Shown here: piece after piece, positions 15,858 to 56,108 of the stretch | Layout: each line of letters opens with the position of its first letter | How positions within the stretch are numbered: the stretch's first letter is position 1 | Source: Cochleicola gelatinilyticus | GTDB lineage: Bacteria; Bacteroidota; Bacteroidia; Flavobacteriales; Flavobacteriaceae | Direction: 5' to 3' | Assembly (NCBI RefSeq): GCF_001637325.1 | Contig: NZ_LRXL01000026.1 | Coordinates: forward strand, 806,001-870,000 | DNA length: 64,000 bases | Translations under genes and position numbers: made by a program | Notes under the pieces: model-generated | What the model was told of the DNA's origin: nothing | Seen by the model: only the letters and a program-made list of their open reading frames with translations | Databases searched by the model: none

Positions 15858-17003
15858 ATGGATTTTTCTGAAATTGCCGGACAAGTACACCTAAAAGCAC
15901 ATTTGCTTAAGACCATCGAAAATGGTCGTATTCCACACGCACAATTATTTGTAGGTAATGCAGGCAGTGGTCTATTGCCAATGGCGATTGCCTATGCTCG
16001 TGAATTACTATGTAGTGAAGCTAATACGGCCGAAAAAAAGGAGCTCTGTGCTAAAAAAATAGATAAACTTGCACACCCAGATCTTCACTTTGTATATCCA
16101 GTAAACACAAGTTCTGTAGCAAAAAAGAACGCTATTTCGGTACATTATACCGAAGAATGGAGAAAATTCGTTCAAACCAACCCGTATGCTTCTTTATTTG
16201 AATGGCTTCAATCGCTTGGAATTGAAAAAAAACAAGGTAACATTAGTAAATTTGAAGCAGAAGATATTGCAAAGCGGCTTTCACTAAAATCGTATGAGGG
16301 TGGATCGAAGGTTCTCATCATGTGGATGGCAGATAAAATGAATACTGAGTGCGCTAATAAAATTCTTAAATTAGTCGAGGAACCACCCAAAAAAACAATA
16401 TTGCTCTTATTAACTGAACATGAAGAACAAATTATTACGACCATTCGTTCCCGGTGTCAGACATTAAATTTCCCATTGCTTTCAGAAGAAAATATTTCAA
16501 CAACACTCGTAAAAAATCACAACATAAAGGAAAGTATAGCCCGTACCATTAGCCGTCAATCAAACGGAGATCTCAATAAAGCGCTTCAATTTATATCTAA
16601 TGAAGGAGATGATTTACAATTTGAGAAATGGTTTATCGATTGGGTACGTACAGCGTTTAAAGCAAAAGGAAATAAAAAAGCTATTAATGATTTGTTACAA
16701 TGGAGTGAGACATTAGCGAGTCAAGGAAGAGAAACACAGAAAAAATTTCTTTCGTACTGCATGGAAACTTTTCGACAAGCGTTATTAAAAAACTATAAAG
16801 CAGATTCTTTATTGTTTTTCTACGCAGTTGATGAAAAATTTTCTATTGAAAAGTTTGCCCCATTTATTCATCAAAATAATATTTTCGAAATAGATACAGC
16901 ATTACAAGACGCATCGTATCACATTGAAAGAAACGGAAACGGAAAATTAATATTTACAGATCTTTCAATTCAATTAACGAGGCTAATTCACAAACCAGAA
17001 TAA
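15858..17003 (+). CDS. holB: DNA polymerase III delta-prime subunit (HolB)
   Basis: This 381-residue protein is a clamp-loader subunit. It opens with the AAA+ type phrase FSEIAGQVHLKAHLLKTIE and IPHAQLFVG, and carries the NILKLVEEPPKKT and TIRSRCQ (sensor/arginine) motifs of delta-prime. The usual zinc-binding cysteines are not obvious apart from scattered Cys residues near 55-70, and the P-loop is degenerate (VGNAGSGLL), as is normal for the non-ATPase delta-prime. The ATG at 15858 is used; the extended TTG start at 15852 lies inside the probable promoter. It is transcribed alone, divergent from pgk. Confidence 0.88.
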   Translation: MDFSEIAGQVHLKAHLLKTIENGRIPHAQLFVGNAGSGLLPMAIAYARELLCSEANTAEKKELCAKKIDKLAHPDLHFVYPVNTSSVAKKNAISVHYTEEWRKFVQTNPYASLFEWLQSLGIEKKQGNISKFEAEDIAKRLSLKSYEGGSKVLIMWMADKMNTECANKILKLVEEPPKKTILLLLTEHEEQIITTIRSRCQTLNFPLLSEENISTTLVKNHNIKESIARTISRQSNGDLNKALQFISNEGDDLQFEKWFIDWVRTAFKAKGNKKAINDLLQWSETLASQGRETQKKFLSYCMETFRQALLKNYKADSLLFFYAVDEKFSIEKFAPFIHQNNIFEIDTALQDASYHIERNGNGKLIFTDLSIQLTRLIHKPE

Positions 17004-17152
17004 TTATAATTAAATTTTATTAATTAAATAAACTCTTATAAATGATTTCTATATAAAAGACGTCATTTACACCGCCCCTAAGAGCGTTTATTAGTTTTTC
17101 CTATATATCACCAAGTAATTTACTTAGAAACCCCTCAAATAGCTTTAAAACG

Positions 17153-18039: not shown

Positions 18040-18055
18040 TGTTCCACGTGAAACA
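18040..18055. other. parS-like ParB-binding site, downstream of mnmG
   Basis: The 16-mer TGTTCCACGTGAAACA differs from the bacterial parS consensus TGTTTCACGTGAAACA at one position. It lies in the gap between mnmG and the methyltransferase gene. ParB binds such sites near the replication origin to build the partition complex. A second site lies 1.9 kb away on the other side of mnmG, which makes a chance match unlikely. Confidence 0.85.
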
Positions 18056-18060
18056 ACTTT

Positions 18061-19932
18061 CTAACGCCCCATGTATACAAGCATTACTGAAATATCGTTA
18101 GGTGACACCCCGCTAATTCGCGAAGCTTGCGAAACTGTCGCTGGTTTTATTTCTGAAAGTTTTTCTCGCGCTTCATATGAGAGAGATTTCAGTTTATAAT
18201 AATCGAATGTTTCGGGTATTTTAATGCCCTCTAGACGATTCAATTTATCTGCATTATTTTTTTCCTTTTCAATGTAACCAGCGTACTTAACTTGTATTTC
18301 GGTCTGCTGAAGCACATCGTAATCTAAATTATTTTCAGAAACAAAAAGATCTACCTCTGGTACTTTTCGCATATCCTCCATCGTAATATTTGGTCGTGAA
18401 AAAACTTTATACATTTTATCACTTTGTTTTACGGGAGCCGAATCACGTTCCGTTAAGATTGGATTAATAACTTCGGGGGCTACACTGGTATCTTTAAAAA
18501 ATTGAATAAATTGATTCGATTGCATTTCTTTTTGCTCCATCCGCTTTAAACGTTCATCGGCTGCCAAACCAATTTCATGTGACCGTGGTGTAAGTCTAAA
18601 ATCGGCGTTGTCTTGTCGCAACAAAGTTCTATACTCTGCTCTTGAAGTAAACATTCGGTAAGGCTCTTCGGTTCCCTTTGTAATTAGATCATCAATTAAA
18701 ACTCCAATATACGCTTCATTACGCTGCAAAATAAATGGGTCCTTTTCATGTACTTTTAAATGTGCATTAATACCTGCCATTAATCCTTGAGAAGCTGCTT
18801 CTTCATATCCTGTAGTACCGTTAATTTGACCTGCAAAATATAAACCTGAAACCAATTTTGTTTCTAAAGTGTGCCGTAGTTGTGTGGGTGGAAAATAATC
18901 GTATTCGATGGCATATCCAGGGCGAAAGAATTTTACATTCTTAAATCCGTCACACTGTTGCAACGCCTTAAACTGAACATCTTCTGGAAGCGATGTTGAA
19001 AAACCGTTAATATAATACTCCACCGTATCCCAACCTTCAGGTTCAACAAATAGTTGATGTCTATCTTTATCGGCAAAACGATTAATTTTATCTTCTATAG
19101 ATGGACAATATCGTGGACCAATACTTTGAATAGCACCGTTGAACATCGGACTACGATCAAAACCCTCCTTGAGTAAATCGTGAACCAAAGGACTTGTATA
19201 GCTCATATGACAAGCTCGTTGGTGTTCTAATGGCTGAGTTTGGTCTGAAAAAGAAAATTTCTCAGGAATATCATCTCCTGGTTGAAGACTCATTTTAGAA
19301 AAGTCTAGAGAACGACCATCAACTCTTGGAGGCGTTCCTGTTTTCATCCTTCCAGTTTCAAAGCCAAGATCAACGAGTTCTTTTGTAATTCCGGTTGCAG
19401 CTCTTTCTCCAGCTCGACCTCCGCCGAATTGTTTATCTCCTATATGAATAAGTCCGTTTAGAAATGTACCATTTGTAAGAACAACAGATTTACCTTTAAT
19501 TTTTAACCCTAGCGAAGTGCGAACTCCGACTATCTTTTCATTTTCCACTAAAATTCCAGAAACCATTTCTTGATAAAAATCAAGGTTCTTCGTTTGCTCA
19601 AGCATCAGTCTCCATGTTTCAGAAAACCGCATTCGATCACTTTGCACTCTCGGGCTCCACATTGCAGGACCTTTCGATTTATTAAGCATCTTAAATTGGA
19701 TAGCTGTTTTATCAGATATAATTCCGCTGTATCCTCCCATTGCATCGATCTCACGAACAATTTGCCCTTTAGCAATACCACCCATAGCGGGATTGCAGGA
19801 CATCTGACCGATATTTTGCAAATTCATAGTAATAAGCAGTGTGCTAGACCCCATATTGGCGGCGGCAGCAGCAGCTTCAGATCCGGCGTGACCCGCACCT
19901 ACAACAATAACATCATACTCTTTATCAAACAT
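18061..19932 (-). CDS. mnmG: tRNA uridine-5-carboxymethylaminomethyl modification enzyme MnmG (GidA)
   Basis: This 623-residue FAD protein works with MnmE to modify the wobble uridine (U34) of several tRNAs. The FAD-binding VVGAGHAGSEAA motif is at about 10-21, SCNPAMGGIAKG at about 45-56, and the second signature GYEEAASQGLMAGINAH near 372; the C-terminal helical domain is complete. It is flanked on both sides by parS-like sites, and in many bacteria this gene is close to the chromosome origin. It is preceded by its own promoter box and follows ybeY on the same strand. Confidence 0.97.
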   Translation of the reverse strand: MFDKEYDVIVVGAGHAGSEAAAAAANMGSSTLLITMNLQNIGQMSCNPAMGGIAKGQIVREIDAMGGYSGIISDKTAIQFKMLNKSKGPAMWSPRVQSDRMRFSETWRLMLEQTKNLDFYQEMVSGILVENEKIVGVRTSLGLKIKGKSVVLTNGTFLNGLIHIGDKQFGGGRAGERAATGITKELVDLGFETGRMKTGTPPRVDGRSLDFSKMSLQPGDDIPEKFSFSDQTQPLEHQRACHMSYTSPLVHDLLKEGFDRSPMFNGAIQSIGPRYCPSIEDKINRFADKDRHQLFVEPEGWDTVEYYINGFSTSLPEDVQFKALQQCDGFKNVKFFRPGYAIEYDYFPPTQLRHTLETKLVSGLYFAGQINGTTGYEEAASQGLMAGINAHLKVHEKDPFILQRNEAYIGVLIDDLITKGTEEPYRMFTSRAEYRTLLRQDNADFRLTPRSHEIGLAADERLKRMEQKEMQSNQFIQFFKDTSVAPEVINPILTERDSAPVKQSDKMYKVFSRPNITMEDMRKVPEVDLFVSENNLDYDVLQQTEIQVKYAGYIEKEKNNADKLNRLEGIKIPETFDYYKLKSLSYEAREKLSEIKPATVSQASRISGVSPNDISVMLVYMGR

Positions 19933-19941: not shown

Positions 19942-19957
19942 TGTTCCACGTGGAACA
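19942..19957. other. parS-like ParB-binding site, upstream of mnmG
   Basis: TGTTCCACGTGGAACA is a perfect 16-bp palindrome and a known natural variant of parS with symmetric changes to the TGTTTCACGTGAAACA consensus. It sits in the mnmG leader, between the promoter box at 19996-20003 and the start codon at 19932, so ParB bound here could also affect mnmG transcription. Confidence 0.88.
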
Positions 19958-32564: not shown

Positions 32565-34787
32565 TTAGTTTTCAATTTCGTCCCGATGTCCTAACATGGT
32601 AAAATCTAAATGTTTTCGTACTAGATCTGCATTCTTCACTTTTACATATACTTCATCACCCAGTGTATATGTTTTTTTAGATTTCTGACCAACCACTGCA
32701 TACTCTTCTTGAATAAATTGATAATGATCATCCCGAAGGTCCTGTATACGCACCATTCCTTCGCATTTATTTTTCATGATTTCAATATAAATTCCCCAAT
32801 CGGTCACTCCAGAGATCACTCCTACGAATTCTTCATCCTGGTGATCTTGCATGTACTTTACCTGCATGTATTTAATACTATCACGTTCGGCGTTGGAGGC
32901 AAGATTTTCCATGTCACTACTATGTGCACATCTGTCTTCGTATTTATCTTGCTTGGCAGAGGATTTTCCATCTAAATATCGTTGCAATAGACGGTGTACC
33001 ATTACATCTGGATACCTTCTAATGGGCGATGTGAAGTGAGTATAATAATCGAATGCCAGTCCGTAGTGCCCAATATTATTAGTGGTATATACGGCTTTGC
33101 TCATGCTTCGAATCGCAAGGGTATCGATTAAATTTTGTTCTTTTTTACCTTGAACATCACTAAGTAATTTATTTAATGAAGTTGCTGTACTATTTTTATC
33201 CTTGGTATTTAATTTATATCCAAATTGTTTGATGATATTTTCTAAAGCAGCAATTTTTTCATCATCTGGTTCGTCGTGAACGCGGTAAACAAAGGTTTTA
33301 CTTTCTCCTTCTTTCGATTTCTTTTTACCAATAAATTCTGCTACACTTCGGTTGGCTAATAGCATAAATTCTTCAATAAGTTTATTAGCATCTTTACTTT
33401 CTTTAAAATAGACACCATCGGGATTTCCGTTGTCACTTAAAATAAATTTCACTTCTACTTTATCGAAAGAAATTGCTCCCTGCCGCATTCTGTTTGTACG
33501 CAAAATTTTAGCCAAACGATCCATTTCAAGAATAGCTTCACCAATGGATTTATCTACATGGTAAGCTTTATCGGTAATGCTTATTTCTGAAGGAATTAAA
33601 TAAGAACTATCCTTCGGATTCTCGATAATATGTTGTGCTTCTTCGTAAGCAAAACGAGCATCACTGTACGTTACGGTTCTTCCGAACCATTTATCTACAA
33701 CCTCTGCTTTATCATTCATTTCGAAAACGGCAGAAAAAGTATACTTTTCTTCATGAGGGCGCAGAGAACATGCTCCATTAGAAAGAATTTCTGGTAACAT
33801 CGGTACTACTCTATCTACAAGATATACAGAAGTAGCACGTTCATACGCTTCATCATCAAGTATAGTTCCCGGTTTAAGGTAATGAGAAACATCGGCAATA
33901 TGGATTCCTATTTCGTAATTTCCATTTTCTAATTTTTCGAACGAAAGTGCATCATCGAAATCTTTCGCATCTTTCGGATCTATAGTAAAAGTGAGCGTTT
34001 TCCGCATGTCGCGGCGCTTCTTAATTTCTTCAGAATGTATTTTTGTGTCTAGTGTATTAGCATATTCTTCCACTTCTGGAGGAAACTCGTAGGGCAGTCC
34101 GTATTGCGCTAAAATAGAATGGATTTCTGTATTATGTTCTCCAGGCATTCCCAGAACTTTAAGAACACGTCCAAATGGGGAATCAGCTTTTTCGGGCCAG
34201 TCTTCCATTTCAACCAATACTATTTCGCCATTTTTTGCACCATTAATTTTTCCTTTCGGAATAAAAATATCGGTATGCATTTTATGATCGGTACTGTTCA
34301 TAAAAGCAAAATTTTCTTGTACATCTATAGTACCAACAAATTCGGTCTTTTTCCGTTCGATGATTTGCGTAATTTCACCTTCAGTTTTTCCTCCTTTTTT
34401 ACGTTTAAATACATATACCTCTACAGTATCTCCATGCAAGGCTTTATTTAAATTTTTATTGCTTACAAAAATATCGTTTTCTAGATCGTCAACAATAATA
34501 TATCCTTGTCCGCGGCCTGCAATATCTACACGACCCGTATAATAATTTTGCGAAGGTGTTAATATAAATTTTCCTCTTTCGAGTTCTTTAATTGTTCCTT
34601 TTCCCTGAAGCTCTTTTAATTTTTTTATGATCTGGTTTCTACTACTGGGATCATCTACACCAAGCTTTGCCGCAATTTGTTTGTAGTTATAAGGGGCAGC
34701 GTGGTCTTTTCTGAAGATTTTTAAAATACTCTGGGTTAAGCCTTCTATTTTATTATTTGATTTTTTCTTTCTTTTGTGTTTGGGCAT
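32565..34787 (-). CDS. rnr: ribonuclease R
   Basis: This 740-residue 3-prime to 5-prime exoribonuclease degrades structured RNA. In order it has an N-terminal basic winged-helix region (IKEL..GTIKELERGKF), cold-shock/OB domains (YTGRVDIAGRGQGYI), the RNB catalytic domain with the Asp cluster DPKDAKDFDDALS (about 276-288) and HYGLAFDYYTHFTSPIRRYPD-type signature, then a C-terminal S1 domain (EFVGVISGVTDWGIYIEI). All catalytic acids appear intact. It is followed by the DUF2807 gene on the same strand. Confidence 0.96.
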   Translation of the reverse strand: MPKHKRKKKSNNKIEGLTQSILKIFRKDHAAPYNYKQIAAKLGVDDPSSRNQIIKKLKELQGKGTIKELERGKFILTPSQNYYTGRVDIAGRGQGYIIVDDLENDIFVSNKNLNKALHGDTVEVYVFKRKKGGKTEGEITQIIERKKTEFVGTIDVQENFAFMNSTDHKMHTDIFIPKGKINGAKNGEIVLVEMEDWPEKADSPFGRVLKVLGMPGEHNTEIHSILAQYGLPYEFPPEVEEYANTLDTKIHSEEIKKRRDMRKTLTFTIDPKDAKDFDDALSFEKLENGNYEIGIHIADVSHYLKPGTILDDEAYERATSVYLVDRVVPMLPEILSNGACSLRPHEEKYTFSAVFEMNDKAEVVDKWFGRTVTYSDARFAYEEAQHIIENPKDSSYLIPSEISITDKAYHVDKSIGEAILEMDRLAKILRTNRMRQGAISFDKVEVKFILSDNGNPDGVYFKESKDANKLIEEFMLLANRSVAEFIGKKKSKEGESKTFVYRVHDEPDDEKIAALENIIKQFGYKLNTKDKNSTATSLNKLLSDVQGKKEQNLIDTLAIRSMSKAVYTTNNIGHYGLAFDYYTHFTSPIRRYPDVMVHRLLQRYLDGKSSAKQDKYEDRCAHSSDMENLASNAERDSIKYMQVKYMQDHQDEEFVGVISGVTDWGIYIEIMKNKCEGMVRIQDLRDDHYQFIQEEYAVVGQKSKKTYTLGDEVYVKVKNADLVRKHLDFTMLGHRDEIEN

Positions 34788-34905: not shown

Positions 34906-35148
34906 ATGAAACATTTTAAAACCATCGCATTTTTTACATTTCCAAGTGAGTACGCAGTGTTAAAATTATTGCTAGAGCAACACGAGATTCGTTTTGTTTT
35001 TTTAAATGAAACTATGATTGGTGTTCTTCCGTTTCATTCTAATGCATTTGGAGGAATTCGCCTTCAAGTACATGAAGAAGATATTTCAGCTGCTCAAAAA
35101 ATACTTCGCGATCTTGACGGAAGATCAGATACTTTAAAGATTGTATAA
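34906..35148 (+). CDS. DUF2007 family protein (putative signal-transducing protein)
   Basis: This 80-residue protein has the DUF2007 pattern: a first strand (KTIAFFTFPSEYAVLKLLLEQHEIRFVFLNE), a Gly-containing middle, and the closing VHEEDISAAQKILRDL helix, a ferredoxin-like small domain. Related PII-like or GlnB-like roles are often quoted but not established. It is divergent from rnr and sits at the left edge of the AT-rich gap that may hold the origin. Confidence 0.82.
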   Translation: MKHFKTIAFFTFPSEYAVLKLLLEQHEIRFVFLNETMIGVLPFHSNAFGGIRLQVHEEDISAAQKILRDLDGRSDTLKIV

Positions 35149-35403
35149 TCCTGTTTTTTATTTCAGAAGAATATATTTTTTTTAAAATAAATTACTCAAA
35201 TAACACTTATCAACAACTATAACATAATCCACCTTTCTTTTTTTAAAATTTAAAATAAAAATGATGTTGATTATGGTGTGTTAATAGCTGGCATAACTTT
35301 TTATGAATTTGTTTTTAATTAAAGTTATGGTTCCTTTTTATAGGGTTATTAACAAGATATAAGAATGTATTTCTATTGATAGATAAGATTTTAAAGAAGG
35401 TAA

Positions 35404-35430
35404 TTAACAACTGTCGATAACCGTTGTTGA
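35404..35430. repeat. inverted repeat with embedded DnaA-box-like word
   Basis: TTAACAAC (35404-35411) and GTTGTTGA (35423-35430) form arms that pair at 7 of 8 positions around an 11-base centre containing TGTCGATAA, one mismatch from a reverse DnaA box. A short GTTGACAAC palindrome follows directly. Confidence 0.6.
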
Positions 35431-35592
35431 CAACACATTTTTAATAAATAGTTTTCAATTATGTGTTAGGAAGACATAAAATTTATTCTATAACTTAGCT
35501 ACAAATCGATGGGTTAAAATTAGGTTTCTAATTAAAATTTTTAAAACAAGAATTAGATTGTGATATGCAACTTTTTTTATGGTTTTTAAATG

Positions 35593-35614
35593 AACAACTA
35601 TCAACACAGTTGTT
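35593..35614. repeat. perfect inverted repeat AACAACT / AGTTGTT
   Basis: Arms at 35593-35599 and 35608-35614 pair perfectly around 8 bases (ATCAACAC). The left arm and centre overlap CTATCAACA, two mismatches from a DnaA box. It repeats the AACAAC/GTTGTT theme of the other inverted repeat in this region. Confidence 0.6.
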
Positions 35615-35727
35615 AACTAAATGTTACAATAATGTTCACTGAGTTTAAAGAATTGAAAATCAGATTTATTTTATTTCACATTCACAGAATGTTATAAACC
35701 ATTCCTTAATATATATTGAAGAACGAG

Positions 35728-35735
35728 TATATTTG
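35728..35735 (+). promoter_or_regulatory. Bacteroidota -7 box for rpiB
   Basis: TATATTTG matches TAnnTTTG and ends 16 bases before the rpiB ATG at 35752. Its position rules out the longer rpiB reading from 35716. Confidence 0.55.
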
Positions 35736-35751
35736 CACAAAATCAGCACAC

Positions 35752-36183
35752 ATGAAATTAGCTATCGGAAATGACCACGCAGGAACAGATTATAAAAATA
35801 CCATAGTCGACTATTTAACTTCACAAGGGCATGAAGTAAAAAATTATGGAACCGACTCTGAAGAAAGTGTGGATTACCCAGATTTTGTACACCCAGTCGC
35901 CACTGATGTAGAAAAAGGTAATGCAGATTTCGGAATAATTATCTGCGGAAGTGGAAATGGTGCAAACATGACAGCTAATAAACATCAAAAAGTGCGTTCT
36001 GCATTATGTTGGACAAAAGAAATTACAGCCTTAGCACGAGAGCATAACGATGCAAATGTATTAAGTATCCCAGCACGTTTTACAAGTGAACCGCAAGCCT
36101 TAGAAATGGTAAAAACCTTCCTAGAAACTTCTTTCGAAGGAGGCCGTCACCAGCGGAGAGTAGATAAAATTGCCTGCTCTTAA
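35752..36183 (+). CDS. rpiB: ribose-5-phosphate isomerase B (RpiB/LacA family)
   Basis: This 143-residue enzyme interconverts ribose-5-phosphate and ribulose-5-phosphate in the pentose phosphate pathway. The family motifs are present: GNDHAGTDYKN at the N-terminus, SVDYPDFVHPVA, and IICGSGNGANMTANKHQKVRSAL with the active-site Cys, and LSIPARFT later. The ATG at 35752 gives the conserved start MKLAIGNDHAG. It is followed by a CDF transporter 10 bp downstream, which may be co-transcribed. Confidence 0.93.
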   Translation: MKLAIGNDHAGTDYKNTIVDYLTSQGHEVKNYGTDSEESVDYPDFVHPVATDVEKGNADFGIIICGSGNGANMTANKHQKVRSALCWTKEITALAREHNDANVLSIPARFTSEPQALEMVKTFLETSFEGGRHQRRVDKIACS

Positions 36184-37128: not shown

Positions 37129-37572
37129 ATGGATGCTATTACTGTTAAAACATTTGAAGAGTTAACTATTTATGAATTGCACGATCTTCTTCAGTTACGA
37201 AGTGAAATTTTTGTTGTAGAACAAGATTGTGTATATCAAGATATCGATGGAAAGGACCACAAAGCACTTCATATTATTGGTTATAAAAACAAAAAAATAG
37301 TCGCCTATACACGCTGTTTTCCTCCAGGAATTTATTTTTCGGAAGCTGCAATAGGAAGGGTTGTCGTTGATGCCTCTCAACGTAAGTTTGGTTATGGTCA
37401 TGAAATAATGAAAGCCTCAAAAGAGGCGATAAAAAATAGGTTTAAGACTGAAGCAATAAAGCTATCAGCTCAAACCTATCTTATAAAATTTTATGAAGTT
37501 CATGGCTTTACAACCACGGGTACAGAATACCTTGAAGATGGTATACCGCACATTGCAATGATCACAACTTAA
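37129..37572 (+). CDS. GNAT family N-acetyltransferase, ElaA-like
   Basis: This 147-residue protein resembles ElaA of the GNAT superfamily. The ELHDLLQLRSEIFVVEQDCVYQDIDGKD N-terminal half is typical of ElaA, and the acetyl-CoA site follows in IGRVVVDASQRKFGYGHEIM (R/Q-x-x-G-x-G/A type). The substrate is unknown. It overlaps the convergent gene at 37562 by 11 bp at the 3-prime ends. Confidence 0.88.
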   Translation: MDAITVKTFEELTIYELHDLLQLRSEIFVVEQDCVYQDIDGKDHKALHIIGYKNKKIVAYTRCFPPGIYFSEAAIGRVVVDASQRKFGYGHEIMKASKEAIKNRFKTEAIKLSAQTYLIKFYEVHGFTTTGTEYLEDGIPHIAMITT

Positions 37573-37933
37573 TTAAGTTTTTTTCTAAATTAAGATCTTC
37601 CAACATTTCATTGGTAAATTTATAATGACCCCGACGAGTAATTATTCTAAAACGTTCGTTGCGCATACGAGTAAGCACATCTAAAAAACGCCATTTCGAT
37701 TTTAATAAATTGGGTTTCTCGCTTTTTAAACTAATTTCAAAATAGTGACGAATTCCAGCTCTTTCCGCAACAATATCGGGGGTTATAGAAATATCACTCC
37801 CTTTTTTCTTATACGATTTAGGAGTGTCATACCCCTCAATATCGGCCTTAATATTTTCGAATCCTTTGTTCTCTAAATAACTAACCGATTCTTTAATTGT
37901 CTCTGTGCTTTCCTGTTTGTCTATCTGTACCAT
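37562..37933 (-). CDS. small protein with a possible PD-(D/E)xK-like nuclease core
   Basis: This 123-residue basic protein is not a family I recognise. The centre reads SDISITPDIVAERAGIRHYFEISLK, with a Pro-Asp followed about 13 residues later by a Glu in a hydrophobic strand and then a Lys, loosely like the active site of PD-(D/E)xK nucleases; the spacing from Glu to Lys (ExxxK) is not canonical. The C-terminal part is Arg/Lys-rich (RMRNERFRIITRRGHYKF), which would suit nucleic-acid binding. Its start is the ATG at 37933. The overlap with the GNAT gene at the 3-prime ends is unusual but both frames look real. Confidence 0.65.
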   Translation of the reverse strand: MVQIDKQESTETIKESVSYLENKGFENIKADIEGYDTPKSYKKKGSDISITPDIVAERAGIRHYFEISLKSEKPNLLKSKWRFLDVLTRMRNERFRIITRRGHYKFTNEMLEDLNLEKNLIKL

Positions 37934-38003
37934 AACCAATATAATACTATTAATTTGGTAATTATTGCGTTAAAGGATTGTTAATTAGTTAAAAGTAAGC
38001 TGT

Positions 38004-38828
38004 TTATGCTTTAGTTTTTGAATGTATCGTTTTGTTAAATGGCATCCCAATTTGTGTACGTAGGCTTGTGTCGTTTGTATGATCTGCAATATCAACCCCA
38101 TATTTAATCTGTCTAACATCTTCGTACACGAACGTGCCAAATAAACGATCCCATATAGAAAACATATTACCATAATTAGAGTCGGTCCAAGGCAATTCGA
38201 AGTGGTGATGAAATTTATGCATATTGGGTGTTACAATAACGTAGCTAAGAGCTTTATCGAGCGATTTTGGTAAGGAAATATTTGCATGGGTAAAATAAGT
38301 AAAAAGCACGCTTAAAATACGGTAGAATAAATAAAAAGCAATTGGCATGCCCATGATAACTACCGCAATTAAAGCAAATGTTTCACGTATTATAAAATCG
38401 ATCGGGTGATGTCGCGTACCAGTAGTGGCATCTACATGTTTATCGCTGTGATGTACCAAATGTAATCGCCACATCCATGTTACTTTGTGCAATAGATAAT
38501 GAACACCATACTGTGCTATAAAATCCAAGACAAGTAAAGACAAGAGCAACTCAACCCAAATGGGGGCGTCAAATAAATGAAGAAGCCCGAACTGTGATTC
38601 GTTTAACCAAACAAATACTCCGATCGTTACAATTCCGAAGAAGGCATTTATAATCATAACAAAAAGTAAAAGAATGAGGTTCACTTTCGCATGCTTCCAT
38701 TTTTTATAAGGTGTTACTATAAGACTGTAATATCCTTCTAAGATCCAAAATAGGGCTAAAACAAAAAATACCCATCCGGCTTTCATCCAGATAGGCATAG
38801 TTTCAAAAAAACGCAGAAAACTCTCCAT
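38004..38828 (-). CDS. sterol desaturase / fatty acid hydroxylase family membrane protein
   Basis: This 274-residue membrane protein carries the histidine boxes of the di-iron fatty-acid hydroxylase superfamily: HYLLH, HLVHHSDKH and, near the C-terminus, HKFHHHFELPW followed by NYGNMFSIWDRLFGT, a segment strongly conserved in the family. It has about five membrane helices. Such enzymes hydroxylate or desaturate lipids; the substrate here is unknown. It begins 5 bp after the S41 peptidase stop, so the two are co-transcribed. Confidence 0.9.
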   Translation of the reverse strand: MESFLRFFETMPIWMKAGWVFFVLALFWILEGYYSLIVTPYKKWKHAKVNLILLLFVMIINAFFGIVTIGVFVWLNESQFGLLHLFDAPIWVELLLSLLVLDFIAQYGVHYLLHKVTWMWRLHLVHHSDKHVDATTGTRHHPIDFIIRETFALIAVVIMGMPIAFYLFYRILSVLFTYFTHANISLPKSLDKALSYVIVTPNMHKFHHHFELPWTDSNYGNMFSIWDRLFGTFVYEDVRQIKYGVDIADHTNDTSLRTQIGMPFNKTIHSKTKA

Positions 38829-38833
38829 TTTAA

Positions 38834-40456
38834 TTATTTCAGAATCTTCGCATATTTACTTTCATTTTTTAATACGTCTACACCCGCTAAGATCTCAGGA
38901 TTGTGCTGGGTTTGGTATTCGTACATCCCATCTCGATAAAAATATCGCTTTAAAATCTCATCACTTAACAACGATACGATTTCAGCCTTTTTAGCTTCCA
39001 CCGCTTTATCCTTTGCGGTATCTATGGCTTGCATAAGATTGGTGTAACTTGCGGCAATCTCTTTGCTTAGATCATCATCTTCGGCTCTACGAAGAGCTTC
39101 CGCAAATTCTTTTTCAGTTTCGGTTTCATATTCGAAATTATTATCCTTCAGAAAACGTAAAAAATCCTGAAAATCGGAATCTTTAAACTTAAAATCATTC
39201 CAATTTTCCATCGAATTGCTGTAATAGTATTTAGTTGCATAATCAAAGATCACGTTGTCCTTTAATAGTGCTGTAGTTATGGGACTAAATACAGCTGTTT
39301 CTACTTCGATATCTGGTAAAATTCCACCTCCGTCAAAAACGCTTCTACCTCCTTTGGTCTTAAACTCATTATACTCTTTAGCATCCACCCGAATAGGATC
39401 TCCATTTTCATCCCGATTCCAGTAATCTAAGGCTTGAATACAACGTCCACTTGGGGTGTAATAACGAGAAATTGTAACTTTTAACTGTGTGCCATACGTT
39501 AATTTTTTAGGGCGCTGTACGAGTCCTTTTCCAAAGCTTCGGGCACCCACTACCACACCTCTATCTAGGTCTTGAATACTTCCCGAAACAATTTCACTTG
39601 CCGAAGCACTTCTACCATTAACCAATACAACTAAAGGAATTTCCGTGTCTATGGGTTCTTTATTGGTTTTATAGACTTTATTGTATTTTTCAATCACCGA
39701 TTTAGTTGTAGTAATTACCTCTCCTTTTGGTACAAAAAGATTTACGATACTAATTGCTTCATTTAAAAGTCCTCCAGGGTTTCCACGAAGGTCTAAAATA
39801 AGCTTGGTAGCTCCCTGAGATTTTAAATCTTCTAGTGCCGCTTTGGTTTCTACGGTAGTTTTGCGATTAAATTTTGTGAGAACAATGTACCCAATATTAT
39901 CGTCTAATAGTTTATAGAAAGGAACCGCATGCACATCGACAGCACCTCGTGTAATAGTTGCAGTGTTGGTTTTTCCTTGTCGGTTATACGTTACTTCAAC
40001 AGTAGAGCCTGCAGCACCTTTTAATAATTCTCCTGCATCATCATCAAAATCGGAAATTTTAATGGTTCCAATCTTTGTTATTTCATCACCCGCTTTTAAT
40101 CCGGCTTTATCTGCGGGAAAATCTTTAAAGGGCTCCATGATGATAAGTTTGTCTTCTTTTACACGAACTGTAGAGCCAATCCCGGTATACGTCCCCGAAT
40201 TATTAATTCGCGCGTCTTCTACCTGTTGTTCGTTCCAATAGACAGTATACGGATCTAAATCGGCGAGCATTCCCTTTACAGCTTTGTCCATAAGCGTAGC
40301 GGGTGTTACCTCGTCGACATAATTCATGTTAAGTTCTTTATACAGCGTGGTAAAAATTTCGATCTGTTTAGCGATCTCAAAAAAATCGCTTTTAAAACTA
40401 ACAGTAGTAAAGAAGATTCCAATGGCTAGTATGGGCAGTATTATTTTCTTTTTCAT
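38834..40456 (-). CDS. S41 family C-terminal processing peptidase
   Basis: This 540-residue protease has a signal peptide or anchor (MKKKIILPILAIGIFFTTVSF), a PDZ domain (about 85-165: TYTGIGSTV, DFPADKAGLKAGDEI), and the S41 catalytic core with LDLRGNPGGLLNEAI. The Ser-Lys dyad is intact: the middle Ser of GRSASASEIV (S285) and K310 in SFGKGLVQ, spaced 25 residues apart as in Prc. A C-terminal helical region follows. It degrades or trims periplasmic proteins. It shares an operon with the downstream sterol-desaturase-family gene. Confidence 0.93.
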   Translation of the reverse strand: MKKKIILPILAIGIFFTTVSFKSDFFEIAKQIEIFTTLYKELNMNYVDEVTPATLMDKAVKGMLADLDPYTVYWNEQQVEDARINNSGTYTGIGSTVRVKEDKLIIMEPFKDFPADKAGLKAGDEITKIGTIKISDFDDDAGELLKGAAGSTVEVTYNRQGKTNTATITRGAVDVHAVPFYKLLDDNIGYIVLTKFNRKTTVETKAALEDLKSQGATKLILDLRGNPGGLLNEAISIVNLFVPKGEVITTTKSVIEKYNKVYKTNKEPIDTEIPLVVLVNGRSASASEIVSGSIQDLDRGVVVGARSFGKGLVQRPKKLTYGTQLKVTISRYYTPSGRCIQALDYWNRDENGDPIRVDAKEYNEFKTKGGRSVFDGGGILPDIEVETAVFSPITTALLKDNVIFDYATKYYYSNSMENWNDFKFKDSDFQDFLRFLKDNNFEYETETEKEFAEALRRAEDDDLSKEIAASYTNLMQAIDTAKDKAVEAKKAEIVSLLSDEILKRYFYRDGMYEYQTQHNPEILAGVDVLKNESKYAKILK

Positions 40457-40525
40457 AAAGGGTAATATTTATTCTGAAAGTATTCCGAAGATACCAATTT
40501 TAGTATAATTCTTTTAAAACAAACG

Positions 40526-40533
40526 CAAAAATA
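40526..40533 (-). promoter_or_regulatory. Bacteroidota -7 box for the S41 peptidase gene
   Basis: TATTTTTG on the minus strand matches TAnnTTTG, about 70 bases before the S41 ATG. No clear -33 element is seen. Confidence 0.45.
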
Positions 40534-40612
40534 CAAACAGTGGTATGTGTTTCATTACATTACTGAAGCAACTATTACAAGAGTAAAATCTATTACTCTA
40601 TTAACGTAGGTG

Positions 40613-41458
40613 CTAGTTGTTGGGCTTTTTATTTTTTCGTTTCCGAAGTACTATAATGCGTACAAATAACAGCACCAGTACAGCAAGAACAAATAGGGGC
40701 CACAAATAAATGATGCCCAAAAAGAACACCGATACGCCATCCCAACCTCCTTGCAACGCATTTTTTATTTTTTGTCCGTACGATTGAGTGATACCTGTTT
40801 CAGCCGTAATTTTATAAAATTCAATATGTACGGTACTCATGCTTACCCTGCTTTGAAGATATTTTAATCTACCTTGCTTTGCTTCGATCTCTTCACGAAT
40901 CTTAGAAAGCTCCCGTTCGATCTCAAGCATTTCTTTTACATTTTTTGCTTGACTTAATAATTCTAAGTATCGTTTTTCAAGTTCTCGTTTCGCTTTCAGT
41001 CGAGCTTCCAGATCCACAAACTCTTCGGTAACATCTTGTCTTGAAATATCTTGAAGGTCGAAGTAAGCAACTCCTTCAGAAACACCGTTTATAAACGACT
41101 GAAAATTTTCAGTAGGGACTCGCAACGTAATATTTTGCGTAATTCGGTTGTAGCCCTTGCCTGAATTATCATTTTGAATAATTGCTTTGTGTTGTTCAGC
41201 AAGCTGAATAATTCGGTTATAGGTTGCTACTACTTCCTGTGTTTCGAACGAAAGTCGTGCGGTTTTAATAATTTTTTGCTCACTTATTTCTGAAGATTCA
41301 TTAGAGATCGTTTCTTCAACCATTTCTACAGAAGGAGAAAGTTCATCTGCAGCGTCTTTGTAAACAATTTCTGCCGTTTCTGAAGCATAAGGTGGCGGGG
41401 ATCCTCCTTGTGAGCACGCAAGTACAAATCCAAATAAGAATAGACTAATTGTTTTCAT
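40613..41458 (-). CDS. DUF4349 lipoprotein
   Basis: This 281-residue protein has a lipoprotein signal peptide (lipobox FVLAC near residue 15), a periplasmic domain with two long helical stretches (VDLEARLKAKRELEKRYLELL and VKEMLEIERELSKIREEIEA) and a C-terminal membrane helix with a Lys/Arg-rich tail. This is the DUF4349 arrangement. The function is unknown. Its start overlaps the 3-prime end of rnpA by 14 bp on the same strand. Confidence 0.82.
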   Translation of the reverse strand: MKTISLFLFGFVLACSQGGSPPPYASETAEIVYKDAADELSPSVEMVEETISNESSEISEQKIIKTARLSFETQEVVATYNRIIQLAEQHKAIIQNDNSGKGYNRITQNITLRVPTENFQSFINGVSEGVAYFDLQDISRQDVTEEFVDLEARLKAKRELEKRYLELLSQAKNVKEMLEIERELSKIREEIEAKQGRLKYLQSRVSMSTVHIEFYKITAETGITQSYGQKIKNALQGGWDGVSVFFLGIIYLWPLFVLAVLVLLFVRIIVLRKRKNKKPNN

Positions 41459-41810
41459 CTTGAAGATTTTTAAGAAGTGTTTTTACTGATTTTTCAAGGG
41501 TATTATAATTAGGCATATCGCTCCCAATGTATAAAAATAACAACGCAAATTTCTTGCCGTTATTGGTTAAAACCTCTTGTTTTTGAATACGATACGCTTC
41601 CCGAATTTGTCGTTTAATACGATTTCTAGTAACGGCGAGTTTAAATTTTCGTTTTGGAACTGCAAAGGCTACCTGTGTAATATCAGCATTTTCAGGTACT
41701 ACATATAGCATTCGTAACGGATACTTTTTAAAAGATTTTCCTTCAGAAAAAAGTGTCTCGATCGTTTTTCGGCTTTTTAGTCTTTCGCTTTTTGGAAATT
41801 TAAAACTCAT
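41445..41810 (-). CDS. rnpA: ribonuclease P protein component
   Basis: This 121-residue basic protein joins the RNase P RNA to mature tRNA 5-prime ends. The family signature is clear: PKSERLKSRKTIETLFSEGKSF, then TRNRIKRQIREAYR in the RNR helix region. The length is normal. It does not neighbour rpmH here, unlike in many bacteria, and precedes a DUF4349 lipoprotein gene with which it overlaps. Confidence 0.93.
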   Translation of the reverse strand: MSFKFPKSERLKSRKTIETLFSEGKSFKKYPLRMLYVVPENADITQVAFAVPKRKFKLAVTRNRIKRQIREAYRIQKQEVLTNNGKKFALLFLYIGSDMPNYNTLEKSVKTLLKNLQDENN

Positions 41811-41821
41811 GCGATAAAGAT

Positions 41822-41859
41822 ATAAAAAGACCCCGTAGCATGCAGTGCCTCGGGGTCTT
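41822..41859 (-). terminator. Rho-independent terminator for the M1 peptidase gene
   Basis: The stem AAGACCCCG / CGGGGTCTT, read on the minus strand, has a T run after it. It lies just past the 3-prime end of the M1 peptidase gene at 41885. Confidence 0.8.
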
Positions 41860-41884
41860 AATCAAAAAAAGGATTTTATAGAAT

Positions 41885-43723
41885 TTATTCTTCTATTCCG
41901 TAGGTATTATTTGCTGGCTCTACATCTGCCATGCGATCACTAGCATCGATCTTCATAGTTTTTACTTTCTTACCGCTAGGAATCGTGAAATCGTAAGTAG
42001 GGTATGCCCATGCCCAATCTTTTAAAACTGTTCGTTTCATATCTGGATACGGATTTGTTTTTTCGCCGCGCATCATTTGTAATGGAATGTAAAATGCTTC
42101 TTGTGTACCATCTTCATACGTTACATACAGGTCTATAGGCATTGGCATTAAACCAATTCGCTCTAAGGTCACTTTAGTTTCGGCTCCGCTCGTTTCCACG
42201 TTCTTAATACCGTAGTCTATTGTATTGGTGGTCTGTGTCCAGTCCATTAAATACCAATCTAACTCTACTCCCGAAACCTTTTCGGCAACCCGAATAAAAT
42301 CATTAGGTGTTGGGTGTTTAAATGCCCATTCGTCAAAATATCGTTTAAGTGTTTTCTGAAGGTTTTCTTTCCCAATTACATATTCCAATTGTGCTAAAAA
42401 CACATTTCCTTTGCTGTAGGCTGTTATTCCGTATGCACGGTTGCTGTTGTAGCGATCTGCATGCGTGGATTGAGGTTGTTCCTTTCCGCTTTTTGCTAAA
42501 AAAGTATACCCGCGATATGATCCAGAGTGTGGATTCGGATTTTTTGAATCCATAATCACATTCATCGCTTCATTCGATATGTAGCTGGTAAAGCCTTCGT
42601 CCATCCATTCATGTTTGCCTTCATTGGTGGCTAGTAAAAACTGAAACCAGGTATGAGCTAATTCATGTGCCGTTACCCCTACCAGGCTTTCGAATTTTCG
42701 CTCTCCAGTAATTAAGGTACTCATTGCATATTCCATTCCACCGTCTCCACCTTGTATCACAGAATATTGATCGTAGGGATATTCCCCGATGTTTTCATTA
42801 AAATATTCAAGTAATTCAGCCGTTTTTGGTTGAAGGTTTTTCCAGTTTTCAAGGATTTCCGGATTGTTTTTATAAAAGAAATGAAGCGTTACTCCATTCG
42901 CACCTTCATAAGTATCGTGAATATAATCGGTATCTGCAGCCCAAGTAAAATCGTGAACATTAGGAGCTTTAAAATGCCAAGTATATTTTCCGTTTTTTGG
43001 CTTCATAGGTTTGTGCCCAGCGGGAGCATATCCTTTACCAATTTCCCCTTCATTTTGAAGGTAGCCTGTGCCACCAATAGTGTAATCAGCATCCATCGTG
43101 ATTTTTACATCGAAATCTCCCCAAACGCCATGAAATTCACGAGCAATGTAAGGATCGGCATGCCATCCTTGAAAATCGTATTCGGCTAATTTAGGATACC
43201 ATTGCGTCATCGAATAAGCAACTCCTTCTGCATTATCCCGACCACTACGGCGTATTTGAACAGGTACTTGTGCATCCCAATTCATATTAAAGGTAGTGCT
43301 TTGTCCTGGAAGTATTGGTGAGTTAAGCGATACTTCTAAAACAGTACCTACCACGTTATAGGTAAGTTCTTTTCCATCTTGAGTTAGCATTGTTGGTTTA
43401 ATATATCCTATTTCATTTGGCTTCAGTTTAGAAATTCGATCTGCAACGCGTCCATCTGCATCTTCAATAGTTAGTGAACGAACATCCATTTCACTTCCCG
43501 GCTGAAAGGCGTTAAAATAAAGGTGATAGAACACTTTTTTGAGTGTGTCTGGAGAGTTGTTTGTATAAACTAATTCTTGTTTTCCTTTGTATTGATGCGC
43601 TTTAGCATCCATGTCGATTTCCATTTTGTAATCAACTTTTTGCTGCCAGTACGATGTGTTGTTCTGAGCTATGGAAACTGCTACAAGACACAAGGTAAGA
43701 ATGCTTCCGAAGAAATATTTCAT
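41885..43723 (-). CDS. secreted M1 family metallopeptidase
   Basis: This 612-residue zinc aminopeptidase-like protein has a signal peptide (MKYFFGSILTLCLVAVSIAQ). The zinc motif HELAHTWF (H353, E354, H357) is followed 19 residues later by Glu376 in HEWMDEGF, completing HExxH-x18-E. The exopeptidase loop reads GGDGGMEYA where aminopeptidases usually have GAMEN. The protein probably acts outside the inner membrane on oligopeptides. It has a terminator downstream and is monocistronic. Confidence 0.92.
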   Translation of the reverse strand: MKYFFGSILTLCLVAVSIAQNNTSYWQQKVDYKMEIDMDAKAHQYKGKQELVYTNNSPDTLKKVFYHLYFNAFQPGSEMDVRSLTIEDADGRVADRISKLKPNEIGYIKPTMLTQDGKELTYNVVGTVLEVSLNSPILPGQSTTFNMNWDAQVPVQIRRSGRDNAEGVAYSMTQWYPKLAEYDFQGWHADPYIAREFHGVWGDFDVKITMDADYTIGGTGYLQNEGEIGKGYAPAGHKPMKPKNGKYTWHFKAPNVHDFTWAADTDYIHDTYEGANGVTLHFFYKNNPEILENWKNLQPKTAELLEYFNENIGEYPYDQYSVIQGGDGGMEYAMSTLITGERKFESLVGVTAHELAHTWFQFLLATNEGKHEWMDEGFTSYISNEAMNVIMDSKNPNPHSGSYRGYTFLAKSGKEQPQSTHADRYNSNRAYGITAYSKGNVFLAQLEYVIGKENLQKTLKRYFDEWAFKHPTPNDFIRVAEKVSGVELDWYLMDWTQTTNTIDYGIKNVETSGAETKVTLERIGLMPMPIDLYVTYEDGTQEAFYIPLQMMRGEKTNPYPDMKRTVLKDWAWAYPTYDFTIPSGKKVKTMKIDASDRMADVEPANNTYGIEE

Positions 43724-43797
43724 ATTGTTTTATATTTAATTAAACTCTTATTTAGGATTGAATTTCAATCTTAAAAGTAACTACTTGATATTATAAC

Positions 43798-43838
43798 TAA
43801 ACCTGTCGAATTCTACAAATATGAAATTTCGACAGGTT
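43798..43838 (-). terminator. possible terminator downstream of the S8 peptidase gene
   Basis: A stem of about 11 bp (AACCTGTCGAA / TTCGACAGGTT) with a 17-base loop lies past the 3-prime end of the S8 gene at 43883. Its trailing T run on the minus strand is short, so it is a weaker candidate than the others. Confidence 0.5.
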
Positions 43839-43882
43839 TTGTATTGGTTTTTTAAATGAATGATGCAATAACAAATATCATT

Positions 43883-45559
43883 TTAGTTTGTCATTTTAGA
43901 CGCCATAATAAATGCGTTGTACATGTTTACCATCTTCCCTGAAGTAGAAATGTTGGTAAATGAATTTTGGTTAGATGGGTCTCCACCTAGAACTACAGAA
44001 GTTTTTGTTGGTAATCCGCTATCCATTAACAGTTGTTTTACTTGCTTTGCAGAAAGTGTTGGATAATAGGAGCGAATCATGGCTGCTACCCCTGCAACTT
44101 CTGGAGAAGCCATCGATGTACCCTGAAGGTATTGGTATTCATTTAAAGGTGTCGTTGACCAAATTTTTACACCTGGAGCAAAAACATCCACATTCGACTT
44201 TCCGAAATTAGAAAAGGTAGCAACCAGTTCACCACCATACTTAAAATTTAAAGCCCCCACGGTTAAGAAGGTTTCAGAAATTTCGGTATTTATCCCTTCT
44301 TGATCGTTTGGATATACTTGTACTCCATCAAGGTCGAAGCCTTCATTTCCAGCAGCATTAACAATAAGCACATCTTTGTCTGCGGCATATTTTATTGCAT
44401 CCCAAACCCATTCTGGATGTGGAGAATAATATTTTCCGAAACTTGTATTTATTACTTTAGCTCCATTGTCTACAGCATATCGAATTGCATTTGCAATATC
44501 TTTATCGTATTCGTCGCCATCTGGTACGGCACGAACCACCATGATCTCAACATTTTTTGCGACTCCATTCATTCCAATACCATTGTCTCTTTCGGCAGCG
44601 ATAATTCCCGCTACATGTGTACCGTGCATGGCGTCCTCTTTTTTAGGATCTGGACCATCTACATCATTATTTCCATAAGCTTTTCCGTCCATCATATCAG
44701 GATTATCTCCTAAAACGCCTCTAAAATCGGTTTCCATATCGAAATGGCTTTTTAATCGACCGTCGAAATAATGCACTCCATCTTCTAATTGATTAATAAC
44801 TTCGGGTACCGAATCTCCGAAACTTAACATTTGTTTAAGCCCAGCAATTTGCCCTTGTTGTTCCACGGTAGGGTTTTGTATGGCGTCTAAGTCTTTACTT
44901 GTGTAGTCTTCTTTACCGAGTTTTTTAGAAATGGCTTCATGTGCTGGCTTCACATTTGCTAAAATTCCTTGATAGCGAGTTAAATTTCCGTTTAATTCTT
45001 GGAATTCTTTTTCGTATTCAGCTTTTGCGCGTTGGTAAATCGCAAATTCTTCACGGTCTGCGGCACTAATAGAAGTTTCTGTTTTTCCTTCGTACTTAGA
45101 CCCTAATTTTCTCATGTATCGCACATATTCCATGTTTTCTGCAACAATGTCTCCAAGAAAATTCCATCCGTGAATATCATCAATATATCCATTGTTATCA
45201 TCGTCTTTTCCGTTTCCAGGGATCTCATCTTGGTTCGTCCAAATCACATTTTTTAGATCTTCATGCTCAATATCGATTCCACTATCGATCACAGCAACGA
45301 TTACTTTTTCTCCTTTTCTGTTCTTAATGAGTTCGCTATACGTTTTGTCAACGCTCATCCCAGGAATCGTATCGGCTACGAGATCTTTTGCCGGCCATTG
45401 CTTTGTTTCGGCATCCGAGAGCGGAGCAATTTTTAACGGGATGGTGTCTATGTTTTCAATAGGAGTTGAAAGAATGGGTGCAGAAGTGCTTCCACAACCC
45501 GATAAAAATGCTGCAGCTGCTACAGCAAAAAGAGAGGTTTTAATACTTGTCATGTTCAT
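43883..45559 (-). CDS. S8 (subtilisin-like) serine protease lipoprotein with a long insert
   Basis: This 558-residue protein has a lipoprotein signal (lipobox LSGC near 22). The catalytic triad is intact: Asp92 in VAVIDSGIDIEHEDL, His312 in MHGTHVAGI and Ser482 in LQGTSMASPEVAG, with the oxyanion Asn405 in NAAGNEG. The gap from Asp to His is 220 residues, against roughly 30-50 in typical subtilisins; it holds a helical, charged insert (about 130-290). It follows the MBL-fold gene by 4 bp. It probably acts at the cell envelope. Confidence 0.92.
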   Translation of the reverse strand: MNMTSIKTSLFAVAAAAFLSGCGSTSAPILSTPIENIDTIPLKIAPLSDAETKQWPAKDLVADTIPGMSVDKTYSELIKNRKGEKVIVAVIDSGIDIEHEDLKNVIWTNQDEIPGNGKDDDNNGYIDDIHGWNFLGDIVAENMEYVRYMRKLGSKYEGKTETSISAADREEFAIYQRAKAEYEKEFQELNGNLTRYQGILANVKPAHEAISKKLGKEDYTSKDLDAIQNPTVEQQGQIAGLKQMLSFGDSVPEVINQLEDGVHYFDGRLKSHFDMETDFRGVLGDNPDMMDGKAYGNNDVDGPDPKKEDAMHGTHVAGIIAAERDNGIGMNGVAKNVEIMVVRAVPDGDEYDKDIANAIRYAVDNGAKVINTSFGKYYSPHPEWVWDAIKYAADKDVLIVNAAGNEGFDLDGVQVYPNDQEGINTEISETFLTVGALNFKYGGELVATFSNFGKSNVDVFAPGVKIWSTTPLNEYQYLQGTSMASPEVAGVAAMIRSYYPTLSAKQVKQLLMDSGLPTKTSVVLGGDPSNQNSFTNISTSGKMVNMYNAFIMASKMTN

Positions 45560-45563
45560 GGGT

Positions 45564-46469
45564 TTAATTAAAAAGTTCGTTCCAGGTAAAGCGTTCGTTA
45601 AGCCGAACTCCTTTCTCTGTATGTTTTACGGTTATAATTGGATTATGAGCATCATGCTCTAAAAATAAATAGTAGTCTTCATCGGCGGCTACATTTAAAA
45701 ATTTTTCCTTTTCAGGCAATGTTAATAGAGGACGTGTATCGTACCCCATAACAAAAGGAAGTGGTAAATGACCAACCGTTGGTAAGAGATCTGCCATAAA
45801 AGCGATTTTTTTACCTTGATATTCTAATAGCGGAATCATTTGTTTATCGGTATGTCCATCTGCAAAGAAAATGCCGAAATCTAATGGTGATTCTTTTAGC
45901 CAGTCCTTTTTTTCTTGGTTTGCTTCAGAAGGAGTTGCACTTGTTAAAGACAATTCGGGTTGGCTTACAAATTTAAGTTGTCCACTTTTTTCCATAGGTA
46001 AAATGTTTTCCTTCAGAAAAGAAGCTTTTTCTCTTTTATTGGGTTGTGTAGCCCATTGCCAATGTGCTTTATTACTCCAAAAGGAAGCATTTTTAAAAGC
46101 AGGCTCATAACCTGTTCGGTCTTTGTTCCATTGTATACTTCCGCCACAATGATCGAAATGAAGGTGTGTCATAAAAACATCGGTAACATCATCACGATGA
46201 AATCCATGAGCTTTTAAGCTTTTATCGATAGAGTCGTCACCCCATTGAAAATAATAACCAAAAAATTTATCACTTTGTTTGTCACCCATACCGGTGTCTA
46301 CAAGTGTTAAACGATCACCGTTCTCAATGAGTAAACAGCGCGCCGCTATGTCTATCATATTATTAGAATCGGCAGGGTTTGTTCTGGCCCATAAAGATTT
46401 AGGGACAACCCCAAACATAGCACCACCATCTAACTTAAAATTACCAGACTCTATAGGATATAATTTCAT
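45564..46469 (-). CDS. metallo-beta-lactamase fold hydrolase
   Basis: This 301-residue protein has the MBL-fold zinc motif THLHFDHCGG (H102, H104, D106, H107), with the further ligands in FFADGHTDKQMIP and a later Asp/His in the C-terminal part (FLEHDAHNPII). It resembles quorum-quenching or general MBL hydrolases rather than a beta-lactamase. There is no signal peptide. It is the upstream partner of the S8 protease, separated by only 4 bp. The substrate is unknown. Confidence 0.88.
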   Translation of the reverse strand: MKLYPIESGNFKLDGGAMFGVVPKSLWARTNPADSNNMIDIAARCLLIENGDRLTLVDTGMGDKQSDKFFGYYFQWGDDSIDKSLKAHGFHRDDVTDVFMTHLHFDHCGGSIQWNKDRTGYEPAFKNASFWSNKAHWQWATQPNKREKASFLKENILPMEKSGQLKFVSQPELSLTSATPSEANQEKKDWLKESPLDFGIFFADGHTDKQMIPLLEYQGKKIAFMADLLPTVGHLPLPFVMGYDTRPLLTLPEKEKFLNVAADEDYYLFLEHDAHNPIITVKHTEKGVRLNERFTWNELFN

Positions 46470-55577: not shown

Positions 55578-55973
55578 CTACGACCGTTTTCTTTTTGGAA
55601 GTAACTCTGGATTTTCAATAGGATCTTCACTTCCCTTAACTGCTTTCTCGATTTTCTCAATATATTCAAGAGAGTCGTCATTAAAAAAAGTGAGCTCTGG
55701 CATTTTTCGAAGCTGATGCTTTGTGAGCTGAGCGATCTGATGTTTTATTTTAGGTTTTAGAACATTTAATTCGTTTACCATTGTTTCTGCCTTATCTGCT
55801 GGAAAAACACTAACATAAACTTTAGCTATAGAAAGATCTACGGTAACACTAACTTTGCTTACCGAAATTATAATACCCATTTGCCCCGACTCACGCAACA
55901 TTTGCTGCAATACATTTGCAAGATCATTTTGAAGGACTCCCGCAATTTTCTTTTGTCTGTTACTTTCTTCCAT
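55578..55973 (-). CDS. rbfA: ribosome-binding factor A
   Basis: This 131-residue protein helps 16S rRNA maturation and 30S assembly under cold conditions. The KH-like RbfA fold is indicated by EESNRQKKIAGVLQNDLANVLQQ, the strand VSVTVDLSIAKVYVSVFP and LKPKIKHQIAQLTKHQLRKMPELTFFNDDS. It is the first gene of a pair with the LolC/E-type permease. Its -7 box lies only a few bases before the ATG, suggesting a leaderless mRNA. Confidence 0.94.
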   Translation of the reverse strand: MEESNRQKKIAGVLQNDLANVLQQMLRESGQMGIIISVSKVSVTVDLSIAKVYVSVFPADKAETMVNELNVLKPKIKHQIAQLTKHQLRKMPELTFFNDDSLEYIEKIEKAVKGSEDPIENPELLPKRKRS

Positions 55974-55977
55974 ATTG

Positions 55978-55985
55978 CAAAAATA
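55978..55985 (-). promoter_or_regulatory. -7 box almost touching the rbfA start codon
   Basis: TATTTTTG on the minus strand matches TAnnTTTG, with 4 bases between it and the rbfA ATG. As for holB, use of this box implies a transcript with little or no 5-prime leader. Confidence 0.45.
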
Positions 55986-56080
55986 CTACATTCTGTTATT
56001 TTCAGAACTATGTTTTCTTTAGATGTTTAAAACCGTTTTTTCTGAAAGCGTACGAATCTACACTCGCAGTAAAGTTTTTG

Positions 56081-56088
56081 TATTTTTG
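56081..56088 (+). promoter_or_regulatory. Bacteroidota -7 box for methylmalonyl-CoA epimerase
   Basis: TATTTTTG matches TAnnTTTG, 20 bases before the ATG at 56109. No clear -33 element. Confidence 0.5.
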
Positions 56089-56108
56089 ATTGAAGAAATC
56101 TTAGCAGA

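Follow-up and report, generated by a model that had tools for sequence, protein, structure and literature searches.

The window analysed here, a stretch of 64,000 nucleotides, covers positions 806001-870000 of contig C25 in a 3.39-Mb genome of 53 contigs. Within it, a gene-free gap of 603 bp (35149-35751) separates the DUF2007 gene on the left (34906-35148, plus strand; PF09413, E 6e-07) from rpiB on the right (35752-36183, plus strand; PF02502, E 1.9e-58), with rnr, the gene for ribonuclease R, lying farther to the left on the minus strand (32565-34787; TIGR02063). The original prediction had described an AT-rich, gene-free stretch between the two neighbours, and this is what is found, except that its true right end is 35751, immediately before the rpiB ATG at 35752, and not 35727. 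AT content is 76.8% in the gap versus 64.2% in the whole window, and in the 690 kb scanned (C25:550001-1240000) it forms the sole 579-bp island at this AT level. A nearest-neighbour stability scan, together with a conserved T-rich/AAAATTT block, marks 35155-35274 as a candidate DNA-unwinding element; at a length of 120 bp nothing in the window is less stable, 16942-17061 being level with it, but windows of 50 and 80 bp put the gap region only fourth and fifth, respectively. The inverted repeats with an AACAAC/GTTGTT theme claimed for this stretch are present as TAATTAACAACTGT (35401-35414) and ACAGTTGTTAACTA (35606-35619), which are 93% complementary and constitute one of 33 inverted pairs in all in the AT-rich gap.

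DnaA boxes were scored against the consensus TTATCMACA, and all counts below refer to boxes with at most one mismatch unless stated otherwise. The scan places six of them in the gap: an exact TTATCAACA (35207-35215, plus strand) and, with one mismatch each, the DnaA-like boxes TAATCAACA (35265-35273, minus), TTATTAACA (35346-35354, plus), TTATCGACA (35412-35420, minus; the plus strand reads TGTCGATAA), TTGTCAACA (35425-35433, minus) and CTATCAACA (35598-35606, plus). The first and the fourth of these had been proposed as near matches, with coordinates and motifs that prove correct. A weaker box, CTATTAACA, with two mismatches, occupies 35279-35287 on the minus strand, and a conserved element, TTGTTAAC (35610-35617, plus), adjoins the last of the six. 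This is the highest count of all 600-bp windows in the 690 kb scanned, where the mean is 0.38 and windows not overlapping the gap reach four at best; where the remaining genome was sampled (C36:1-40000 and 15 stretches of 20 kb, including one inside the 690 kb), no 600-bp window holds more than three. The standard box of Escherichia coli cannot by itself locate the origin, because exact TTATCCACA occurs 34 times genome-wide versus 42 times for its reversed control. No run of two or more DnaA-trios lies within 15 nt of any box in the gap; since the DnaA-trio element is not needed in every origin, this leaves the assignment to oriC in place.

Comparison of the gap among related flavobacteria, suggested at the outset as a check, shows that both the gap and its boxes are retained. 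Loci of relatives were taken as the best 80 of 582 by rpiB, the closest named ones being Flavobacteriaceae that include an uncultured Marixanthomonas, Ulvibacter litoralis and an Altibacter. In 58 of these 80, rnr or DUF2007 closes off the stretch before rpiB at a distance of no more than 2.6 kb, and these 58 were kept for gap counts; the other 22 have no rnr or DUF2007 homologue upstream, or have it more than 2.6 kb away, and carry 0 to 6 boxes in the stretch of at most 700 bp that precedes rpiB. As in the window, rnr is directed outward, away from the gap, in 54 of the 58 (towards it in L127, L129, L131 and L134), a DUF2007 homologue is present in 18, gap length is 488-697 bp in 46, and gap GC is below that of its locus in every case, by 0.03 to 0.22. 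Because the boxes themselves are AT-rich, other intergenic DNA from the same loci and order-1 Markov simulations served as controls. The 600 bp upstream of rpiB contain 268 boxes in 34.8 kb (7.70/kb) in the 58 relatives, whose mutual relatedness means that the counts are not independent, versus 42 boxes in 48.7 kb of other intergenic DNA (0.86/kb) and 1.17/kb in the simulations; exact boxes stand at 1.32/kb versus 0.10/kb in other intergenic DNA. In 45 of the 58, no other part of the locus reaches the box count of the gap, which is tied in 8 and exceeded in 5. Exact TTATCAACA occurs in 25 of 58 gaps (1.6 expected) and the weaker box CTATTAACA in 17 (0.9 expected). A search that presupposed no motif returned, among the 11 9-mers most in excess over simulation, TTATTAACA (28 of 58 gaps; 4.5 expected), the same TTATCAACA and GTTATCAAC (18; 0.4), the remainder being shifted or related forms, TAATTAACA and words composed only of A and T.

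An alignment of ten sequences (the window, eight of the best 80 of 582 loci, and L149) resolves several fixed blocks. These are, at the left, the first box, which reads TTWTYAACA in 10 of 10 rows; the T-rich/AAAATTT block; TGTT-AT; ATAACTTTT (10/10); a box zone at about 35401-35420; and, near the right, TTGTTAAC, again invariant (10/10). Loci L146-L175, the group from which L149 comes, stand outside the 58-locus counts, and 14 of them, with rpiB on the minus strand of the locus, were left unread. Among the most distant of the loci, L126-L145, four (L126, L128, L133 and L144) keep 4-5 boxes upstream of rpiB with no rnr found upstream, whereas the count there is 0-1 in L137 and L145, both Prolixibacteraceae, and in L142, from Pontibacter.

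Two parS sites, rightly predicted to lie 15-17 kb from the gap, accompany mnmG (gidA; 18061-19932, minus strand; TIGR00136): a parS-like site with one mismatch just beyond its 3' end (18040-18055) and an exact palindrome just ahead of its start (19942-19957). These are the only parS sites with up to two mismatches in the entire 3.39-Mb genome, where the reversed control gives one site. Out of 60 relatives, 24 were searched for parS and 19 for dnaA, most of them selected because they had few contigs or a close rpiB. Sites resembling parS were found in 22 of the 24, and in 20 they share a contig with rpiB at a distance of 3-63 kb; in G018 they are on contigs other than that of rpiB, in G025 they are near the contig start with rpiB at 3.53 Mb, and in G046 and G047 none were found. 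Further two-mismatch sites, far off or on other contigs, occur in six relatives (G018, G026, G027, G029, G032 and G049), and the reversed control matched in 13 of the 24, so that weight rests on sites with zero or one mismatch; at least one such site is present in 19 of the 20 relatives with parS near rpiB, G040 having two-mismatch sites only.

What could a gap of this kind, with the top AT island and the top box density in 690 kb and kept as such in relatives, be doing upstream of rpiB? We predict that 35149-35751 is the replication origin (oriC) of the chromosome, with a probability of roughly 0.88, and very probably an ordinary origin of the DnaA type, far from dnaA and in a gene neighbourhood common to many relatives. 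DnaA supplied from its distant locus would bind the cluster of about six TTATCAACA-type boxes, whereupon the very AT-rich left part (about 35155-35274) would unwind, helicase would be loaded and two forks would depart in opposite directions. ParB on the parS pair around mnmG may help to separate the new origins, and the right end of the gap would double as the rpiB promoter.

The GC skew, whose minimum had been expected to identify the origin, agrees with this prediction in the three relatives sampled, whereas the switch fitted in the genome's own contig is off the gap. The minimum of raw cumulative skew over the window and contig is broad (about 850-940 kb), and third-codon-position skew, with a correction for gene strand, was therefore preferred. 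For the genome's own contig, this places the minus-to-plus switch at C25:869550 (window 63.5 kb), 28 kb to the right of the gap; when the switch was put at the gap, 1.8% of 1000 simulations yielded a fit at or past 869000; the raw minimum, at 910392, is 69 kb to the right. It is possible that a recent uneven exchange or a nearby rearrangement has displaced the skew switch of this contig. Three of 10 single-contig relatives were sampled by taking twenty 20-kb stretches of each chromosome, giving a resolution of 195-200 kb, and in all three (G014, G021 and G032) the corrected switch falls between the samples that flank rpiB. Raw skew is concordant in G014 and G032, and its best fit in G021 is the next interval to the right. 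At fine scale, the skew minimum of G014 (918.9 kb) is within 8 kb of rpiB (911.1 kb), and over the 235 kb read the windows richest in boxes are those of the rpiB gap; in G021 a switch is near 1190 kb (rpiB at 1187 kb), with a deeper local cumulative minimum at 1126 kb, 61 kb from rpiB.

The fitted switch at 63.5 kb is one reason to ask whether the origin is in the same region but elsewhere, either beside mnmG and parS or on the right of the gap at a distance of about 20-28 kb. The latter position also draws on five box-like sites at 56531-57150, with at most four in any 600 bp and three of them within 56910-56944, which lie between ribE and what is presumably a tRNA gene, recognised by eye. 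These sites, however, fall at a breakpoint in gene order with respect to G014 (between 55.7 and 57.2 kb; 55700-57200), and the ribE-pdxA-fabH block (57-63 kb here) is across rpiB in G014, at 975-979 kb, so that gene order across the origin has changed in one of the two lineages, that of this genome or that of G014. In G014 and G021, moreover, the best box windows are upstream of rpiB (in the G021 gap, up to 8 box-like sites in 600 bp), and the 14 best windows of each include no counterpart of the 56.5-kb sites. A position beside mnmG has the backing of two published Ori-Finder predictions that name mnmG in relatives, in the passages taken up below; against it, the gaps flanking mnmG in this genome measure only about 60 and 130 bp. 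Taken together, an origin elsewhere in the region seems unlikely.

Genes to the left of the breakpoint are collinear with those beside lepA in G014, and those from ribE onward are on the opposite side of the predicted origin there. Gene polarity, which had been put forward as fitting an origin, offers a weak argument for one here: rpiB and the next two genes are on the plus strand as claimed, but the eight main ORFs at 37562-46469 are all on the minus strand and the left neighbour, the DUF2007 gene, is on the plus strand. The minimum of cumulative gene strand, at 1128780, gives no help in placing the origin.

Less probable still is that the gap is no more than an extended regulatory region, or an RNA leader, of rpiB, its boxes being regulatory DnaA sites. 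DnaA can regulate genes, and a conserved promoter-like element does precede rpiB: TATATTTG (35728-35735, plus strand), which we take to be of the Bacteroidetes TAnnTTTG promoter type and in which TTTG is invariant in 10 of 10 aligned rows. An Rfam scan, on the other hand, gave two matches, both far under the gathering scores, and parS and skew also indicate an origin in the region.

An origin adjoining dnaA, although the general rule in bacteria and accompanied here by an exact TTATCCACA at C36:22244 near that gene, is barely credible, given that C36:1-40000 has no more than three boxes in any 600 bp and that dnaA in the three relatives sampled is 0.9 Mb (G014), 1.9 Mb (G021, assuming a circle) and 1.7 Mb (G032) from rpiB, the site of their skew switch. 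The genome does encode DnaA, on another contig (C36:23875-24360, E 2.9e-61). The proposal that the origin is in the gap upstream of rpiB and remote from dnaA is supported by the conserved gap and boxes, by skew in 3 of 3 relatives, by parS near rpiB and by the separate contig of dnaA. Remoteness is nevertheless not constant, G047 being a counterexample with dnaA at 409 and rpiB at 121898.

Among known origins, oriC of Escherichia coli likewise combines an AT-rich unwinding part with DnaA boxes and has gidA/mnmG in its region; there, however, gidA is the direct neighbour and the boxes are of the TTATCCACA type with GATC sites, whereas here they are TTATCAACA-like and parS is near. In Bacteroidetes, oriC is commonly far from dnaA according to a passage of PMC4755523, in which the predicted oriC of Prevotella intermedia chromosome 1 resembles the gap in its multiple DnaA boxes, skew transition and distance from dnaA, but is a 476-bp locus of another lineage. 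The oriC predicted for Elizabethkingia meningoseptica, as outlined in part of PMC8994065, is also alike (649 bp, three boxes, AT-rich elements, 1.87 Mb from dnaA), although in another genus. Within Flavobacteriaceae, passages on Mariniflexile litorale (PMC11278836) and Algorimicrobium bowmanii (PMC12843772) use skew and Ori-Finder to place the origin near mnmG, in Mariniflexile explicitly not at dnaA, which did not fit the skew there (the oriC/ter labels in a figure legend of PMC11278836 are reversed relative to the text). These passages name mnmG alone, whereas in our window the gap with the boxes precedes rpiB, at a distance of 15 kb from mnmG. Elsewhere, oriC is set at dnaA in the Porphyromonas maps of a section of PMC5771137, Blattabacterium is described in a passage of PMC2768785 as being without DnaA boxes and without dnaA, and the text of PMC6323995 has no word beginning with Bacteroid or Flavobacter. 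Remoteness from dnaA is therefore already reported, and the interval upstream of rpiB is a refinement. Among the papers listed by literature searches, no title or opening of an abstract names the rnr-rpiB interval; it may already be catalogued, for example in DoriC, some entries of which are not the true origin according to a passage of PMC13342612.

Extending the prediction beyond this genome, we consider it probable, with less assurance than for the gap itself, that Flavobacteriaceae, and perhaps a large part of Flavobacteriales, have their ancestral and conserved oriC in the rnr(-DUF2007)-rpiB interval, together with a box type peculiar to it, TTATCAACA/TTATTAACA. If so, it would provide a gene-context rule for finding origins in draft genomes where dnaA misleads: this address, conserved upstream of rpiB with parS at mnmG nearby and, in most cases, an outward-pointing rnr on the far side, would locate origins in drafts and aid growth-rate estimates. 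Flavobacterial chromosomes are numbered from dnaA in passages on Mariniflexile (PMC11278836, with the mismatch to skew) and Lutibacter (PMC5219744); both in this genome and in the sampled relatives, dnaA lies a long way from the probable origin. The gap also supplies a 600-bp fragment for DnaA-binding tests and for replicating plasmids in Flavobacteriaceae.

A further element, TNAACANNGTTGTTAAC at the 3' side, was considered as a general origin marker and rejected, as it is present in 4 of 36 genomes, our own included, and its reversed control in 5 of 36; the matches are in this genome, in G027 about 150 bp before rpiB, and in G038 and G040 far from rpiB. The two parS sites flanking mnmG are 1.9 kb apart, and a pair spaced 1.9-2.0 kb recurs in 18 of the 24 relatives searched. 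In G021 (C1, L250-L251, about 1156.9-1182 kb), the block of mnmG and parS is inverted relative to rnr-rpiB, and in both G014 and G021 mnmG is again found between two parS sites, a conserved parS-mnmG-parS arrangement.
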